21,121 bases of DNA, taken from positions 1 to 21,121 of IMG/VR virus record IMGVR_UViG_3300025669_000226; one strand, given 5' to 3'. Under the pieces are notes generated by a model, which had not been told where the DNA came from, did no database searches, and saw only the letters and a program-made list of their open reading frames with translations. A program made the translations under genes and the position numbers. Positions 2,222 to 19,833 of this stretch are shown one piece after another. Source of the DNA: a virus. Every line of letters begins with the position of its first letter. Position 1 is the first letter of the stretch.

Positions 2222-2638
2222 TCAAAGGTTTAACTTGGAGCGAATAAGAGTGGCAGTTATTCCATCAGTATGAGGAATATAAAGCAAGGCAATATTGTGG
2301 TCAGTTAGCCATTGGGCGCAAAATTTCATCTGTTTGCAGTAGTCTTTTTCTAGCCAATCGTTACCAATAATTATAATATCTGGATTAACGCTTAGAATTG
2401 CTGGCTTGCTATCGGCTCCGCCAATGTTAGGGATAATCTCGTCAATGTAAGGGCATTTAGATAAAATCTCAACCCTTTGCTGATAACTAAACTCTGGAGC
2501 TTTCCCTTTATAACTTTTAATAAAATCATCGGTATTAAGTGAAACTACTAAGTAATCACAATGCTCTTTGCAAAGTCTAAAGAAATTATAGTGAGCAAAA
2601 TGCGGAATTGAAAAAGAGCCTCCACTATATCCTATCAC
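2222..2638 (-). CDS. TagD-like cytidylyl/nucleotidyltransferase
   Basis: This is a small HxGH-superfamily nucleotidyltransferase that resembles glycerol-3-phosphate cytidylyltransferase. The N-terminus carries a GGSF...PHFAH version of the G-T-F-D-x-x-H-x-G-H signature, with both His kept and Ala replacing Gly. DIIIIGNDW matches the family's D-x-x-V-x-G-D-D-W strand, and the C-terminal HTDGITATLIR matches the R-T-x-G-I-S-T-T motif. Length (138 residues) is typical. Such enzymes make CDP-activated glycerol, ribitol or similar alcohols. I chose GTG 2638 over TTG 2656 because it follows an AGGAAA site and gives a GTGA overlap with the upstream gene. The substrate is unknown; together with the glycosyltransferases it suggests surface polymer or virion decoration chemistry. 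Confidence 0.78.
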   Translation of the reverse strand: MIGYSGGSFSIPHFAHYNFFRLCKEHCDYLVVSLNTDDFIKSYKGKAPEFSYQQRVEILSKCPYIDEIIPNIGGADSKPAILSVNPDIIIIGNDWLEKDYCKQMKFCAQWLTDHNIALLYIPHTDGITATLIRSKLNL

Positions 2639-3156
2639 AACATTTTCCTGTTCCAAACTGACTTATACTTAATTAAATAATCATTTTCAATCTTCATTAC
2701 CATATGACCGAACTTATCAACAAAGTTGTCCACATTGTGCAAATCATCAAACAATGAAAAAGGTTTCTCAAACTTAGCATAATCTAATCCAATCTGCATT
2801 TCATACTCAACCGACTGCAATTTTGTTTTAATTTCTGGCAAATCCATTTGTTCCAAAATAGCTCTTTTATATTTTCCAAGATAACAGCCAAAAAGGCTTG
2901 GGTGATTACAAATTGACACGCTCTGAGGTAGAGCAAGAGCAATATCAATAAACTTAGGATTTTTGACCTCAACAGTGTCTTGTAGAAAAATAAACTCATC
3001 TAAATCAGTATTATCTAAAACCCACTTCAGCTTCCCCACCTCATAGCCATCGCAATCAACCGTTATGATTGGAATATTAGTGTTTATACTGTCCAAGCAG
3101 TTTCTTAACTGTTCAGTGCGGTCAGGTCTGGTGCCAATAATTATTGCTCTTTTCAT
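2635..3156 (-). CDS. Small glycosyltransferase-like protein
   Basis: The 173 residues begin KRAIIIGTRPDRTEQLRNCL followed by IPIITVDCDG, the Rossmann-like opening of GT-A (GT2-type) enzymes. A strand EFIFLQDTVEV stands where the metal-binding D-x-D would be, here Q-D-T. A later SICNHPSLFGCYLGKYKRAIL segment resembles the acceptor-side region of short glycosyltransferases. The start ATG overlaps the preceding tandem glycosyltransferase stop (ATGA), and its own stop overlaps the cytidylyltransferase start, so the three are translated as a coupled unit. The weak D-x-D leaves open that it is a divergent or non-catalytic partner. Confidence 0.58.
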   Translation of the reverse strand: MKRAIIIGTRPDRTEQLRNCLDSINTNIPIITVDCDGYEVGKLKWVLDNTDLDEFIFLQDTVEVKNPKFIDIALALPQSVSICNHPSLFGCYLGKYKRAILEQMDLPEIKTKLQSVEYEMQIGLDYAKFEKPFSLFDDLHNVDNFVDKFGHMVMKIENDYLIKYKSVWNRKML

Positions 3157-4400
3157 TCAAACATTTTTATATTGGTATACTTTTTTTGACGTTTCTTAAA
3201 TAGAGCTTTATCTGCTTTATTCACTTTTTTGTCTGACTTATCATAATCAACCTCAAACATTATCGCTTTAGGGTTGTAACAAATTTGATTATCCACTGTT
3301 GCGGCAACACTCAGCTCAGTGTCAGCATAGTGAGTGTGATAGCAGGATTCAAAGAACGGTTTTTTATAACTTGCCCTTACCATTCCAAATGCAGCCAACT
3401 TACCATTCCACTTATTATCGTTAAAAGCTAAAAGACCTTTGCCAGTACGTTCTAGTTCGCTATAAGCCTCAGTTAACCAGTTTTTGCCACCAAAAGCATC
3501 TTGTGCTGTATAAACATAGAAATCGTAGTCTTTGCCGTAAACTTCTTTATGGTGATTAACAAATTCGTTAATTTTTGCAGTAAAACCGACTCTCTCATCA
3601 TCCATTAGTAAAAAGTAGTCTGCCTCGAGACCAGCATTGTCAGATAGCTGTTTTATCACCTTAGAACCAAGTTCTCGATCTATGCAAGGCATTAAGACGG
3701 CTATTTTCGGCTTTTTATCATCACTGACTGCCAATGTATCACTTATATCGTGAGCCTGGCGATATTCTTCCAATCCAATCAATCTTTTTGATATGTGATA
3801 GGCTTGAACGCCATTATGTACCCAAATTTTATAGCCGTGCTTCTGACAGCGTTGACAAAAGATTAAATCGTGGCTTTCTTTGTGAGTAGTAGCGGTAGGG
3901 ATGTGAAAGTTCTTTCCATAAGTAGCCCACTTGTCCTCACCTAGAGTGTCAAACACTTCTCGCTTAATTAACATTCCACCAAAGCCAATGCCATCAACTT
4001 CTAGTGGTTTTGCTGGTGATCCACTTAAATCAACACTCGTATAAGGTAAATCTTTATTGCCACTTTTAATATAAACAACTGGATCATAAGGTCTACTTCT
4101 CTTATGGTAAACAGTTCCGATAATATCTTTATCAGCTTCAACCAACTTTTGAATAATATCAAATGGGTAAACTTCGTCAACATCAAGCCATAAAACGTGA
4201 GTCAAGTCGTTAATTTCTAAAAAATCATTGAGAATTGCATTTCTGTTTGAGTCAGTACGAACACCAGTTTTATATGATAAGGATATTTTATAACCACACT
4301 TCTTGGCGTGAGCCATAATTGATGGAAGATTGCCAAAGGCAAATTCTACATCAGCTTCTTGTGGGGTGGGCAACCCGATAGCAATGTGTTTTTTGTCCAT
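3153..4400 (-). CDS. Tandem GT-A glycosyltransferase (two domains)
   Basis: The 415-residue protein looks like two GT-A units. The first (about 1-220) has VLWLDVDEVYP with the D-x-D at residues 73-75, an acceptor-loop GIGFGGMLIKREVF at 137-150, and SHDLIFCQRCQKHGYKIW near 176-193, which fits the usual E/D-x-x-F-C catalytic region. The second (about 231-400) restarts with PKIAVLMPCIDREL, followed by YFLLMDDE (266-269) and a YADTELS segment. It is the first gene after a strong terminator, and its ATG (4400) lacks a good ribosome site, so expression is probably low or read-through. Likely role: sugar transfer to a virion protein or a host surface polymer. Donor and acceptor cannot be told. Confidence 0.75.
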   Translation of the reverse strand: MDKKHIAIGLPTPQEADVEFAFGNLPSIMAHAKKCGYKISLSYKTGVRTDSNRNAILNDFLEINDLTHVLWLDVDEVYPFDIIQKLVEADKDIIGTVYHKRSRPYDPVVYIKSGNKDLPYTSVDLSGSPAKPLEVDGIGFGGMLIKREVFDTLGEDKWATYGKNFHIPTATTHKESHDLIFCQRCQKHGYKIWVHNGVQAYHISKRLIGLEEYRQAHDISDTLAVSDDKKPKIAVLMPCIDRELGSKVIKQLSDNAGLEADYFLLMDDERVGFTAKINEFVNHHKEVYGKDYDFYVYTAQDAFGGKNWLTEAYSELERTGKGLLAFNDNKWNGKLAAFGMVRASYKKPFFESCYHTHYADTELSVAATVDNQICYNPKAIMFEVDYDKSDKKVNKADKALFKKRQKKYTNIKMFE

Positions 4401-12700: not shown

Positions 12701-12718
12701 TAGGTGAGCAAGCTTTCA

Positions 12719-13065
12719 AAAAGCCTATGCACAAACCACCAAAAAGCCTATGTAATAGTGCATAGGGTTCAAAGCCTATGCAAAGCCTATGCACAAAGCC
12801 TATGCCTAACTGATGTATCAATCCTTTTGCCACAATGAAAAGTACCTTGTCAATAACGTACTCAAAAAGCCTATGCCTAAGGGATATATCAATCCTTTTG
12901 CCTCAAATTACATAGGCTTTGCTAAAAAACAGCTAAAACTATTTGTATTTATATTTTATTTTTTTCCTTATTGAGGAAATAAAAAAAAAAGAAAAAATAA
13001 AAATGAAAAATAAAAAAAAAATAATAAAATTTTAAAGTTTTGAATTTTTTACAAAAGCCTATGCA
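12719..13065. repeat. Iteron cluster AAGCCTATG, candidate replication origin
   Basis: Core AAGCCTATG occurs in direct orientation at 12721, 12744, 12772, 12783, 12796, 12867 and 13055, and inverted at 12911-12919. There is an inverted one-mismatch copy at 12761-12769. Two cores sit in a ~40-bp direct repeat (12795-12834 and 12866-12905, 71-bp period), each followed by ATATC/TGTATC-AATCCTTTTGCC-like sequence. TTGTCAATA also recurs at about 12695, 12848 and 13077. Iterons, an adjacent A/T tract and the primase-helicase gene next door fit an origin where the encoded initiator or helicase loads. No known origin was matched. Confidence 0.7.
12936..13052. other. A/T-rich tract, possible DNA unwinding element
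   Basis: About 115 bases are nearly free of G/C, with long A runs on the + strand (12981-13030). A small dyad TTTCCT-TATTG-AGGAAA lies at 12963-12979. The tract sits between the iterons and the rightward promoter and has no open frame. It is probably the melting site of the origin. Confidence 0.55.
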
Positions 13066-13097
13066 CTTTGGTTTTTTGTCAATAACAAAAACTACTG

Positions 13098-13134
13098 TTG
13101 ACACGTAATTAAAAAAGAGTTAGATTGGTATAAG
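13098..13134 (+). promoter_or_regulatory. Rightward replication-operon promoter
   Basis: An extended -10 TGGTATAAG (13126-13134) would start RNA near 13141. A consensus TTGACA (13098-13103) is present but 25 bp away from that box. With TTAGAT (13120-13125) it would give a 16-bp spacer. Either way transcription enters the structured leader before the primase-helicase. Confidence 0.55.
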
Positions 13135-13140
13135 AGATAA

Positions 13141-13333
13141 AGAAAAATCTATAAAACTCGCCCCGAAAGGGTTTAACTGCGTCAAGGAGAGGAATTAACC
13201 TCTCACTCGGAGGGCAAACCGAGCGTTATGATATAATTAGCGAGAATAAGAAATCTGTTTTCGCTTAGCAAGGGTAAATCTTTGCTCAAAGTCTAATTAT
13301 ATTAGCCTTTGTTAAGTGAAAACAGATTTTTTT
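13141..13333 (+). ncRNA. Candidate structured leader RNA/attenuator of the primase-helicase
   Basis: About 190 nt fold into a compact set of helices. P1 CTCGC/GCGAG (13157-13161 with 13240-13244) closes a junction holding three hairpins: CCC-GAAA-GGG (13162-13171), GAGAGG/CCTCTC (13187-13204) and CTCGG/CCGAG (13206-13223). A long terminator hairpin follows (13251-13329). TATAATTAG (13232-13240) is complementary to CTAATTATA (13293-13301) in the terminator loop, so it could form a pseudoknot or antiterminator. It matches no RNA class I know. It could be a cis-regulator, or a stand-alone ~190-nt or (from extended -10 TGATATAAT at 13229) ~90-nt RNA. Confidence 0.55.
13251..13333 (+). terminator. 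Long-stem terminator before the primase-helicase
   Basis: Arms 13251-13273 and 13306-13329 pair over about 23 bp (outer part AAATCTGTTTTC/GAAAACAGATTT, inner part CTTAGCAAGG/CCTTTGTTAAG with G-U pairs). They are followed by T to 13333. The G-U pairs favour the rightward RNA. The ribosome site (GAAAGG, 13339-13344) comes just after it, as in attenuators. Confidence 0.75.
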
Positions 13334-13347
13334 CTCTGAAAGGTCAA

Positions 13348-15486
13348 ATGACCACTGAGAACATCCCACAAGAAATGAAAGCCACGAAGCAGTGGATACT
13401 CTGGAAGTTTAAAGAAGTTCCAAACCCTAAGACTGGCGGCACTAAGATGACTAAAGTTCCTCTTAGTCCTTTAACTTTTCAGCCACACGATGTAAAAGAC
13501 AAGTCGGTTTACCAAACTTTTGAGAAAATTGTCGAAATCCACACTAAAAATAGTGATTTTGGCATCGGTTTCGCATTTAACACAGAAATCTCAGACATTT
13601 GTGGCATTGATATTGATAATAATAATATAAAAGATACTGTAACGATCAAGGCTAAAAAACAACGAAATGCTGATGACATTATTTTAATAATGAAAAGCTA
13701 CACTGAAAAATCCCCATCGGGCAAAGGCTATCACATTTACTTTCACGCAACCAAATCCAATAAGAACTGCCGAAACACCCTCTTAGACCTTGAAACATAC
13801 AGCAGGGATCGTTTCTTTACTGTGACTGGAAACAAGGTATCTAATGAGACCACAGTGGAGAAAAGACAAGAGGAGTATGACCAAGTTCTTGAAAAGTATT
13901 TTAAAACAGACAAACCAGATATTGTCGCTATGAAAAGGACTCCTATTATTCTCCAAGATCAGCACGTCCTTAATCTCCTCGCTTGCGAAAAAGATGCTCA
14001 CGTATTTAAAGCTCTATATACTAATCCTGGATTTGGTGACTACCCATCACAATCTGAGGCTGACGGAGCTCTCTCAATGAAGATCGCTTTCTATACCCAA
14101 GACGTTTCTCAAATCAAGAGAATAATGTTCAGCTCTGCTAAAGTCAGAGATAAATGGAACAGAGAAGCTTGGATGCTTGGAACTATCAACAGTGCTATCA
14201 ATAAATTAAGTGAATACTACACTCCTCCATCAAACGAGGATTTATCTTTTGACTTCCCAGAGGATCACAAACTCTCTTGGGTTGAGGCTGAGGATGAGGC
14301 TGCCAAAATCTTTGATAAAAATGGTCGAGTAAAAAAGAAGCAGAAAAAATTAGTCACTGATGAATATAGAAAAATATTTGATAAGCTCGGCTACTCTTTT
14401 GCTCTCAATGAATTAAACGACAACATTGAAGTCAACGGCGAAACTTATGGTGATGTAATGATTGGAGTTGTCGGAAGTAATCTTGATGATGTTGGCGTTT
14501 TTGAAAAAGGTCAAATCAGTCATAAAATTACTGCTTTTGCCAACGAGAATAGGTATCATCCAATTAAAAGATATTTAGACACTCTTGTTTGGAATGGAGA
14601 AAAAAGTATTGACCACCTAATTGATTGCTTTGAAGATGAGGATGGAACTTTCGCCATCTATTTTAAAAAGTGGATTGTCGGTTCTATTGCTAAAATTTAT
14701 AAAAGACACCAGAACAAGGTTTTAATCTTAAACGGAAAGCAAAATATTGGCAAAAGTAGGTTTGTTGACTGGCTAGGATCTGCTTGTGAAGATGGTCGCT
14801 ATTTTATATCTGCTGAATTAAACGCTGGAGATAAAGATAGCTTAGTCAGAATGGCAAGCAAATGGATTTGGGAAATCGGAGAGCTTAGTGGCGTTTCTGG
14901 TAAGACTTCTGCTGGCAGAATTAAGTCACTGATTACAACAGTTGACCTGACTGTCAGAAAATCTTATGCGAAAAACGATATGACTAAGCCAGCTCTAACA
15001 AGCTTCATTGGAACAGTCAACGATGCTGGTGGCTTCTTAAACGATAAAACTGGCAGTAGAAGGTTTGCTGTTTCCACAATAAAGAGCATTGACTGGCATA
15101 GGTATCTTAACGAATTAGACCCTGATGATGTTTGGGCTGAGGCTTATCACCTCTTTAACAGTGGCTTTGACTATGAGTTTAATGTTCAGGAAGAAGAAAT
15201 GCTTGAAAAGCAGAATGAGGCTTACACCGTTGATGATCCAGTCAGCGATGCAATTATGGAGTTCATTGACTTTTCTGATCCTAATGGAGAAATCTCATCA
15301 CTTGAATTGAGGAAGGTTGTGCTTGAGGTCACAAAAGTAAGGTGTAGCGACACCGAGCTTAGTCAACAGATTGGCTACATTATGAAGAAGAAGAAAGTGA
15401 AGAAAATTACAAAAAGAAATCGTGGCACTATTTATATTGGAGCACGATATGTAGCGGATGCTATAAGAACTGGAGGATTACTATGA
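13348..15486 (+). CDS. Primase-helicase: AEP-type primase fused to VapE-like ATPase
   Basis: The 712-residue replication protein has an N-terminal archaeo-eukaryotic primase/PrimPol-like domain. It has CGIDIDN with D88 and D90, SPSGKGYHIYFH with H129, and LETYSRDRFFTVTG near 148-161. The C-terminal VapE-type superfamily 3-like ATPase has NGKQNIGKSRF (Walker A, G463-S470), KWIWEIGEL (E509) and the FIGTVNDAGGFLNDKTGSRRF arginine-finger region. The end (LRKVVLEVTKVRC...) looks like a winged helix. I chose ATG 13348, with GAAAGG upstream, because the earlier TTG 13309 lies in the terminator hairpin. It probably primes and unwinds at the adjacent origin. Confidence 0.88.
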   Translation: MTTENIPQEMKATKQWILWKFKEVPNPKTGGTKMTKVPLSPLTFQPHDVKDKSVYQTFEKIVEIHTKNSDFGIGFAFNTEISDICGIDIDNNNIKDTVTIKAKKQRNADDIILIMKSYTEKSPSGKGYHIYFHATKSNKNCRNTLLDLETYSRDRFFTVTGNKVSNETTVEKRQEEYDQVLEKYFKTDKPDIVAMKRTPIILQDQHVLNLLACEKDAHVFKALYTNPGFGDYPSQSEADGALSMKIAFYTQDVSQIKRIMFSSAKVRDKWNREAWMLGTINSAINKLSEYYTPPSNEDLSFDFPEDHKLSWVEAEDEAAKIFDKNGRVKKKQKKLVTDEYRKIFDKLGYSFALNELNDNIEVNGETYGDVMIGVVGSNLDDVGVFEKGQISHKITAFANENRYHPIKRYLDTLVWNGEKSIDHLIDCFEDEDGTFAIYFKKWIVGSIAKIYKRHQNKVLILNGKQNIGKSRFVDWLGSACEDGRYFISAELNAGDKDSLVRMASKWIWEIGELSGVSGKTSAGRIKSLITTVDLTVRKSYAKNDMTKPALTSFIGTVNDAGGFLNDKTGSRRFAVSTIKSIDWHRYLNELDPDDVWAEAYHLFNSGFDYEFNVQEEEMLEKQNEAYTVDDPVSDAIMEFIDFSDPNGEISSLELRKVVLEVTKVRCSDTELSQQIGYIMKKKKVKKITKRNRGTIYIGARYVADAIRTGGLL

Positions 15487-16258: not shown

Positions 16259-16768
16259 ATGTCAGATTTTTTTCCAGATGAGATCCAAACGGAGTCCATC
16301 TCAGGATACACTAAGTTCGTTAGTGGAACTCCAACCCGTCTTAGAATTTTAGCCAAACCTCTTTTCCTGTGGGAAACTTGGATTGAAGAAGATGGCAAAA
16401 GAGCTCCAAAACGCTTTGCGCTAGATGCTAAAATCCCAGTTAGTGAAGTTGGTGCAGACGGCATTAAACAGACAATGTTTTGCAAGGTTTATAACTATGA
16501 AACAAAGAGTGTTCAGGTTATGAGCGTTTACCAAAAACAGATTTTAAAGCCACTTAAAAAGTACACTTTAAATCCTAAATATGGTAATCCAACAGGCTAC
16601 GACATCATTGTCGAGCGTGAAGGTGAAGGAAAGCAAACCAGATACAGTTTGGTCGCTAATCCTAAAGAGGAAATGGCAAAAGAGGTCAAAGAAGCCGATG
16701 AGAAGCAAGGAGTCGACCTAGAGGCTATGCTTATCAACGCTGACCCCTTTATGAATAAAACCAAATAA
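16259..16768 (+). CDS. Single-stranded DNA-binding protein (gp32/OB-fold-like)
   Basis: The 169 residues match the phage SSB type seen in T4 gp32-related proteins. Features are GYTKFVSGTPTRLRILAKPLFLWETW, a DGKRAPKRF loop, FCKVYNYETKSVQVMSVYQKQILKPLKKYTLNPKYG with aromatic and Lys residues for ssDNA, and TGYDIIVEREGEGKQTRYSLVAN. The C-terminal tail is charged and ends DPFMNKTK. It has its own consensus promoter and a terminator after it, fitting a high-copy replication protein. The weak part is the absence of a clear zinc motif, so it is gp32-like rather than a proven orthologue. Confidence 0.72.
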   Translation: MSDFFPDEIQTESISGYTKFVSGTPTRLRILAKPLFLWETWIEEDGKRAPKRFALDAKIPVSEVGADGIKQTMFCKVYNYETKSVQVMSVYQKQILKPLKKYTLNPKYGNPTGYDIIVEREGEGKQTRYSLVANPKEEMAKEVKEADEKQGVDLEAMLINADPFMNKTK

Positions 16769-19530: not shown

Positions 19531-19833
19531 ATGACACAACACTTCACCCCATCACAAAACCAATATATCGCCAAGCTGATTAAAAAGGCTAAAGCTAAAG
19601 AGCGAGCTAGAATAATTATGAATAACTTTACACCAGGACAAAGAAGCGAGATTGCTAGGCTGATTAAAAAGGCTAAGGTAAAGGAGCGAGCTAGAATAAT
19701 TATGACAGATAAATCATCAGTACAAGAATTTGCAGACAGTTTAAAAGATGATCCACAGGAAATTTTAAACTGGATTGATAGAGAAATTGCAGAATACAAA
19801 AAACTCAAAGCAATACTGGAGAAACAGAAATGA
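19531..19833 (+). CDS. Tandem-repeat basic protein (100 aa)
   Basis: Two ~28-29-residue repeats, each beginning with Met, share FTP, then IA-x-LIKKAK-x-KERARIIM, over 19531-19617 and 19618-19701, and a single C-terminal acidic part follows (SVQEFADSLKDDPQEILNW...). The DNA is also repeated. The repeat is basic helix, perhaps nucleic-acid or membrane-binding. The start ATG follows the previous stop by four bases with no ribosome site. Internal in-frame ATGs at 19618 and 19702 could give shorter forms. Confidence 0.55.
   Translation: MTQHFTPSQNQYIAKLIKKAKAKERARIIMNNFTPGQRSEIARLIKKAKVKERARIIMTDKSSVQEFADSLKDDPQEILNWIDREIAEYKKLKAILEKQK

Follow-up and report, generated by a model that had tools for sequence, protein, structure and literature searches.

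A putative transcription attenuator ahead of a phage primase-helicase gene, with complementary segments in the terminator loop

In phage P4, the CI RNA shuts off the replication genes through premature termination of their transcription, which is brought about by complementary segments (seqA and seqC) within one transcript and involves a processed, trans-acting RNA (PMC4825925). The C4 RNA of phages P1 and P7 is an upstream structured RNA with a two-part, loop-borne complementarity to a region further down a phage transcript (PMC12197685). In the plasmids pT181 and pIP501, transcription of the replication gene is attenuated through alternative folds of the leader, with a countertranscript as the effector (PMC5703833). 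RNA-mediated antitermination in a phage leader is described for the put RNA of HK022 (PMC6256539).

The leader analysed here precedes a primase-helicase gene in a virus record of IMG/VR, the whole of which (21,121 bases) was analysed and is referred to as the window. We consider it probable that this leader is a transcription attenuator that controls the replicase operon of the phage and is switched by base pairing between RNA segments of the transcript itself. Its nearest analogues are the rep attenuators of pT181 and pIP501, the P4 CI RNA and the P1/P7 C4 RNA. As in P4, complementary leader segments would control termination ahead of a phage primase-helicase; the P4 regulator is a processed RNA acting in trans, whereas here a predicted intrinsic terminator carries the complements in its own loop. 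The two-part, loop-borne complementarity resembles that of C4, which keeps the ant mRNA from being translated by acting around its ribosome site, while the target here would be the terminator loop before the replicase gene. Unlike C4 itself, the leader is not recognised by the Rfam C4 model (no match in the window even at E 10, none at the gathering score in the relatives), and since no shared sigma-70-like countertranscript promoter was found either, it is assigned to none of these three groups. A literature search, with few subscription journals among its sources, returned no description of such an element.

The leader and the gene behind it

In the window, the replication genes are on the plus strand and the late genes on the minus strand. 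The terminase (TerL) is ~32% identical to the terminases of HTVC010P-type pelagiphages. The PrimPol half of the controlled gene product carries the HBD domain of the NrS-1 polymerase and is joined to a VapE-like helicase. The features of the leader and of the replication module are as follows.

13098..13126 (+): sigma-70-type promoter TTGACA-17-TAGATT, read from the sequence, with counterparts in the relatives
13162..13171 (+): hp1, hairpin CCC-GAAA-GGG, from the fold
13187..13204 (+): extra hairpin GAGAGG-AATTAA-CCTCTC, from the fold and comparison with the relatives; window only
13206..13223 (+): hp2, CTCGG-AGGGCAAA-CCGAG, from the fold; counterpart hairpin in all four relatives
13212-13218 (+): a, GGGCAAA in the hp2 loop, complementary to the terminator loop; weak in the window
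13229..13240 (+): b, linker TGATATAATTAG, putative 5' strand of the antiterminator; 12-bp complement of 13293-13304
13240-13248 / 13256-13264 (+): predicted inner antiterminator helix, from the best fold of a nascent RNA ending at 13306
13248..13279 (+): 5' arm of the terminator, from the fold and the hairpin scan
13281..13287 (+): a', TTTGCTC in the terminator loop, at a position equivalent to a' of the relatives; weak in the window
13293..13304 (+): b', CTAATTATATTA in the terminator loop, from its complementarity to b and the nascent folds
13301..13333 (+): 3' arm of the terminator and U tract (U7 at 13327-13333), from sequence, fold and hairpin scan
13339-13343 (+): ribosome site AAAGG, before the ATG at 13348
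13348..15486 (+): controlled gene, NrS-1-type PrimPol joined to a VapE-like helicase, by domain comparisons; ATG at 13348
16259..16768 (+): SSB-like protein of the same replication module, 61% identical to the protein of the relative L089 and related to single-strand binding PHROGs

The promoter would place the transcription start near 13134. The sequences quoted in the initial annotation are all present, including its P1 helix (CTCGC at 13157-13161 with GCGAG at 13240-13244), the GAAA hairpin at 13162-13171, the hairpins at 13187-13204 and 13206-13223, the terminator at 13248-13332 and the ATG at 13348. The terminator it had noticed is far beyond chance, with a z-score of -8.7 for the hairpin alone (0/200 shuffles as stable), and for the leader as a whole the z-score is -4.8 (again 0/200). 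The multi-helix domain that P1 was supposed to close is weak on its own (z -1.5 to -2.5), and P1 itself did not hold up: the 5-bp helix is missing when the entire leader takes its best fold and has no counterpart in any of the four relatives. An extended -10-like sequence, TGATATAAT (13229-13237, inside b), was rejected as a conserved element because b differs in every relative. Nor is there a case for a ribosome-mediated attenuator, since no leader ORF has a Shine-Dalgarno match and none in the window reaches 8 codons.

Conservation of the leader plan among relatives

Single-protein scans of IMG/VR with the primase or the TerL of the window gave no relatives. Scanning by TerL alignment gave two uncultured sisters, L006 and L007 (57% and 56% identical), whose records lack this primase, and a scan with the aligned PrimPol portion brought up L089 (40% identical), where the region upstream of the gene has an equivalent architecture with practically no sequence similarity to the window. 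The SSB-like protein shared by the window and L089 served as the anchor for finding relatives and led on to L170, L171 and L173. After duplicates were merged (L169, L175, L289 and L336 are the L089 contig; L293 and L337 the L171 contig; L295 and L338 the L173 contig), five independent leaders remained, namely those of the window and of the four IMG/VR relatives L169, L170, L171 and L173. Three of them (L169, L170 and L173) are ~80% alike, and the window and L171 stand apart from these and from each other. Further searches added none: DNA searches of phages with the window or L173 as query gave no match, a DNA search of plasmids gave a partial match to the AT-rich end only, and a second SSB scan revealed no further relatives. 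The SSB model matched nothing in 296 genomes from the Flavihumibacter phylum, and no comparable leader was recognised by the covariance model in the stretches fetched from Cellulophaga and Flavobacterium phages, which carry distant SSB relatives. Pattern scanning of genome contigs yielded two matches, both rejected as chance occurrences inside coding genes; in viral contigs, only known leaders were among the matches listed after structural filtering.

All five leaders have a long U-tailed hairpin directly before the replicase start codon, with a U6-7 tract right after the stem and a TTGACA-type promoter upstream. The promoter has the form TTGACA-18-(-10) at the equivalent place in L170, L171 and L173, and a weaker TTGACT in L169. 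An intrinsic terminator thus lies between promoter and gene in 5/5 leaders. The gene behind it is not the same throughout, being an NrS-1-type PrimPol with VapE in the window, an NrS-1-type PrimPol with AAA_25 in L089 and L171, and an unrelated Prim-Pol/PriCT with DnaB in L170 and L173. With three non-orthologous kinds of replicase behind one leader plan, the leader stays while the gene behind it changes. We appear to be dealing with an RNA control element without an Rfam entry that is retained while unrelated primase-helicase types swap behind it, and the limiting or timing of their own replication by phages without a known repressor is poorly known. As to the genes themselves, the NrS-1-type PrimPol half is found at 13348-15486 of the window, 3996-5843 of L089 and 5458-7353 of L171, and as its partner is VapE in the window and AAA_25 in the relatives, these replicases are domain chimeras.

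The rarity of the hairpin was assessed by scanning both strands of 6.1 Mb of fetched phage DNA, chosen loci rather than a random sample, for U-tailed hairpins with loops of 18-36 nt. There were ten distinct matches, the best five of which were the five leaders with the window ranked top, and a sixth was the L171 hairpin read on the opposite strand. With a covariance model trained on L169, L170 and L173 only, the scores were 32.3 bits for the window and 18.7 bits for L171, while no unrelated site in 1.6 Mb exceeded 16.1 bits; the fast filtered search did not list the window, so that this comparison rests on bit scores, and the reverse strand of the window scores 17, i.e. about half of the window score reflects a generic hairpin.

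A stem of more than 20 bp directly before a ribosome site might also serve as an RNase III processing site or an mRNA-stabilising hairpin, or belong to a stand-alone small RNA. We regard such roles as quite unlikely, for they would need neither the U6-7 tract after the stem in all five leaders nor the co-varying pairing described below. Moreover, the end of the U tract is only 14 nt from the ATG, so the primase mRNA should pass through the terminator.

Complementary segments and their covariation

In all five leaders the terminator loop holds two segments, a' followed by b'. The complement of b' is the linker b ahead of the terminator, and that of a' is the loop of the hairpin before the linker (hp2 loop). 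The segments are as follows.

b/b', window: TGATATAATTAG/CTAATTATATTA
b/b', L169: GTCAACAAAC/GTTTGTTGAC
b/b', L170: TAACAAAC/GTTTGTTA
b/b', L173: GACGGATAA/TTATTCGTC
b/b', L171: AGAGGTCAT/ATGACCTTT
a/a', L169, L170 and L173: GTGCAAGC/GCTTGCAC
a/a', L171: GTTGAAGC/GCTTCAAC
a/a', window: GGGCAAA/TTTGCTC

When every b was matched with every b', each b fitted its own b' alone, except within the close pair L169/L170. The pairing of the linker with the terminator loop proposed in the initial annotation is borne out in the window (p 0.007 against the whole 5' domain, dinucleotide shuffles), and has a counterpart in all four relatives. When the 5' domain was compared with the loop and no segments were preselected, the two best disjoint complementarities were a:a' and b:b' in four of the five leaders; in the window the best was b:b', and a:a' was weak and outranked by another pairing. 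Accordingly, b:b' co-varies in 5/5 leaders and a:a' in 4/5. The combined Fisher p for co-varying pairing, from dinucleotide shuffles, is 4e-10, which is optimistic because there are only five leaders and three of these are ~80% alike. A comparison of L169, L170 and L173 also revealed compensatory changes, whose absence among relatives would have counted against the initial annotation; they occur in hp1, in hp2 and in the stem of the terminator. The attenuator-like leader of that annotation, with an antiterminator or pseudoknot through the terminator loop, is supported by a complementarity that co-varies in five independent phages, and sequence and covariation together establish the parts of the predicted element, their order, the complementarities and the terminator.

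The other half of that proposal, a riboswitch, fared differently. Beyond the stems and the complementary segments, there is no core common to the window and the relatives. Sensing of a metabolite would be in keeping with a leader that has helices and a terminator ahead of a gene; yet we rate it as extremely improbable, as the window, L171 and the others share no conserved unpaired core (all five leaders compared), P1 is not conserved, and the Rfam search found no riboswitch. No other Rfam match was returned either.

A phage or host protein binding hp1/hp2 or the linker could instead choose the fold, in the manner of lambda N or Q, or as autoregulation by SSB or the replicase, which would suit the module. 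In its favour, four of the five leaders have a small hairpin with a purine-rich loop before hp2. However, neither hp1 nor its loop is constant, L171 has no evident hp1, and no conserved protein-binding sequence core is present, which makes this explanation unlikely. In L173 an additional hairpin, GTTGATTAAATCAAC, is located upstream of hp1 (about 3765-3785), and is absent from L169 and L170.

Nascent folding and the proposed switch

When the RNA is folded as ending at b', the mean b:b' pairing probability is 0.87 in the window, 0.99 in L169, 0.64 in L170 and 0.91 in L173, and b:b' is part of the best nascent fold in these four of the five leaders; in L171 the best nascent fold has a:a' paired instead. 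In the computed folds b:b' is lost after about 6-15 nt of the terminator 3' arm have emerged. The spacing between b and the terminator 5' arm is about 1 to 10 nt across the leaders (7 nt in the window), and with b so close before the arm and a full stem of more than 20 bp, the geometry suggests that b:b' cannot coexist with the full stem. These models thus point to a mutually exclusive alternative fold involving the terminator. In the window, the predicted antiterminator fold also pairs 13240-13248 with 13256-13264 and so ties up the terminator 5' arm, and in L169, L170 and L173 the arm can form a CCAG...CTGG hairpin of its own. The completed terminator is the more stable fold in all leaders, hence read-through would depend on kinetics.

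Under the attenuator reading, transcription would begin near 13134, and the nascent RNA would make the small hairpins and then the linker b. Once the terminator loop is made, b' could pair with b before the terminator 3' arm exists, and a' could also pair with a in the hp2 loop where that pairing is strong, which would lock the fold. The b:b' helix would act as an antiterminator with the 5' arm tied up inside, allowing read-through into the replicase gene; should b:b' fail or be displaced in time, the long hairpin would form, RNA polymerase would stop at U7, and no replicase would be made. The assignment of states, like that of a default, is inferred from the folding model: b:b' would give read-through (ON), and the terminator would be OFF. 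The element would presumably limit or time replicase expression. The antiterminators of pT181 and pIP501 pair with a terminator arm, whereas the pairing here is chiefly with the terminator loop, and the put RNA has its effect at remote terminators, through RNA polymerase, whereas here the pairing is with the loop of one adjacent terminator. An antiterminator of this form, linker to terminator loop, is open to a simple compensatory-mutation test.

The same parts may also act between molecules. In a possible extension of the attenuator reading, which we hold tentatively, terminated leader RNA would pair with the a and b segments of further leaders that are still being transcribed; its exposed a' and b' would block their antiterminator and enforce termination, and more genome copies would give more leader RNA and less replicase. 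The phage would thereby make its own copy-number or immunity brake, comparable to the P4 CI and P1/P7 C4 RNAs. The exclusive fit of each b to its own b' would agree with this, and so would the identity of b/b', which in spite of the pairing is 50-59% as compared with 72-84% for the rest of the leader (p 0.009-0.12), as expected under selected specificity. This lower conservation hints at a changing specificity and keeps the trans-acting version alive, and among phage replication genes the P4 CI RNA provides a precedent (PMC4825925). On the other hand, the covariation is explained by pairing in cis alone, and as no integrase was noticed, nothing points to prophage immunity. On this view, the regulator of each phage lineage would be the terminated leader RNA, serving as a self-specific copy-number or exclusion brake made from one transcript; this seems to us somewhat doubtful. 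If true, such a brake could sit before any replicase, with its specificity altered by co-changing b and b', and if the specificity in trans holds, the orthogonal b/b' pairs would be useful parts.

Termination driven by a countertranscript from the opposite strand would follow an equivalent logic, for which the replication-gene leaders of pT181 and pIP501 with their alternative terminators are a precedent (PMC5703833). It is very unlikely here, since a search of the five leaders for sigma-70-like sites found no minus-strand promoter common to them at the loop, and the key complementarity lies within one strand.

Just upstream of the leader, the window has six direct AAAGCCTATGCAC-like iterons together with inverted copies at 12714-13066, a candidate origin, followed by an A-rich tract at 12960-13030. 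The initial annotation had placed the leader next to a candidate origin; this stands for the window, where the iterons are present, and does not extend to the relatives, whose leaders have none, so that its origin-linked RNA is not supported. These iterons, together with a primase as the gene product, might suggest that the hairpin acts as DNA, for instance as a cruciform or an origin hairpin, and not as an RNA. This we judge to be highly improbable, given relatives without iterons, a constant hairpin orientation with the promoter upstream and the start codon downstream, and the b:b' pairing that the hairpin carries.

Several other features of the window were observed. The sequence TTGTCAATA occurs three times (12692, 12845 and 13076) between the HNH gene and the leader; it reads TATTGACAA on the minus strand, and these copies may be -35 elements or the site of a regulator. 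On the minus strand, ORFs resembling a nucleotidyltransferase and a glycosyltransferase, judged by their translations, lie inside the structural gene module (2222-4400). A small protein encoded at 19531-19833 has an internal duplication of two near-identical segments, LIKKAKAKERARIIM and LIKKAKVKERARIIM. In addition, the minus strand has a candidate late promoter at 12271-12242, TTGACA-18-TAGAAT, which is near-perfect and has a TG ahead of the -10 box.
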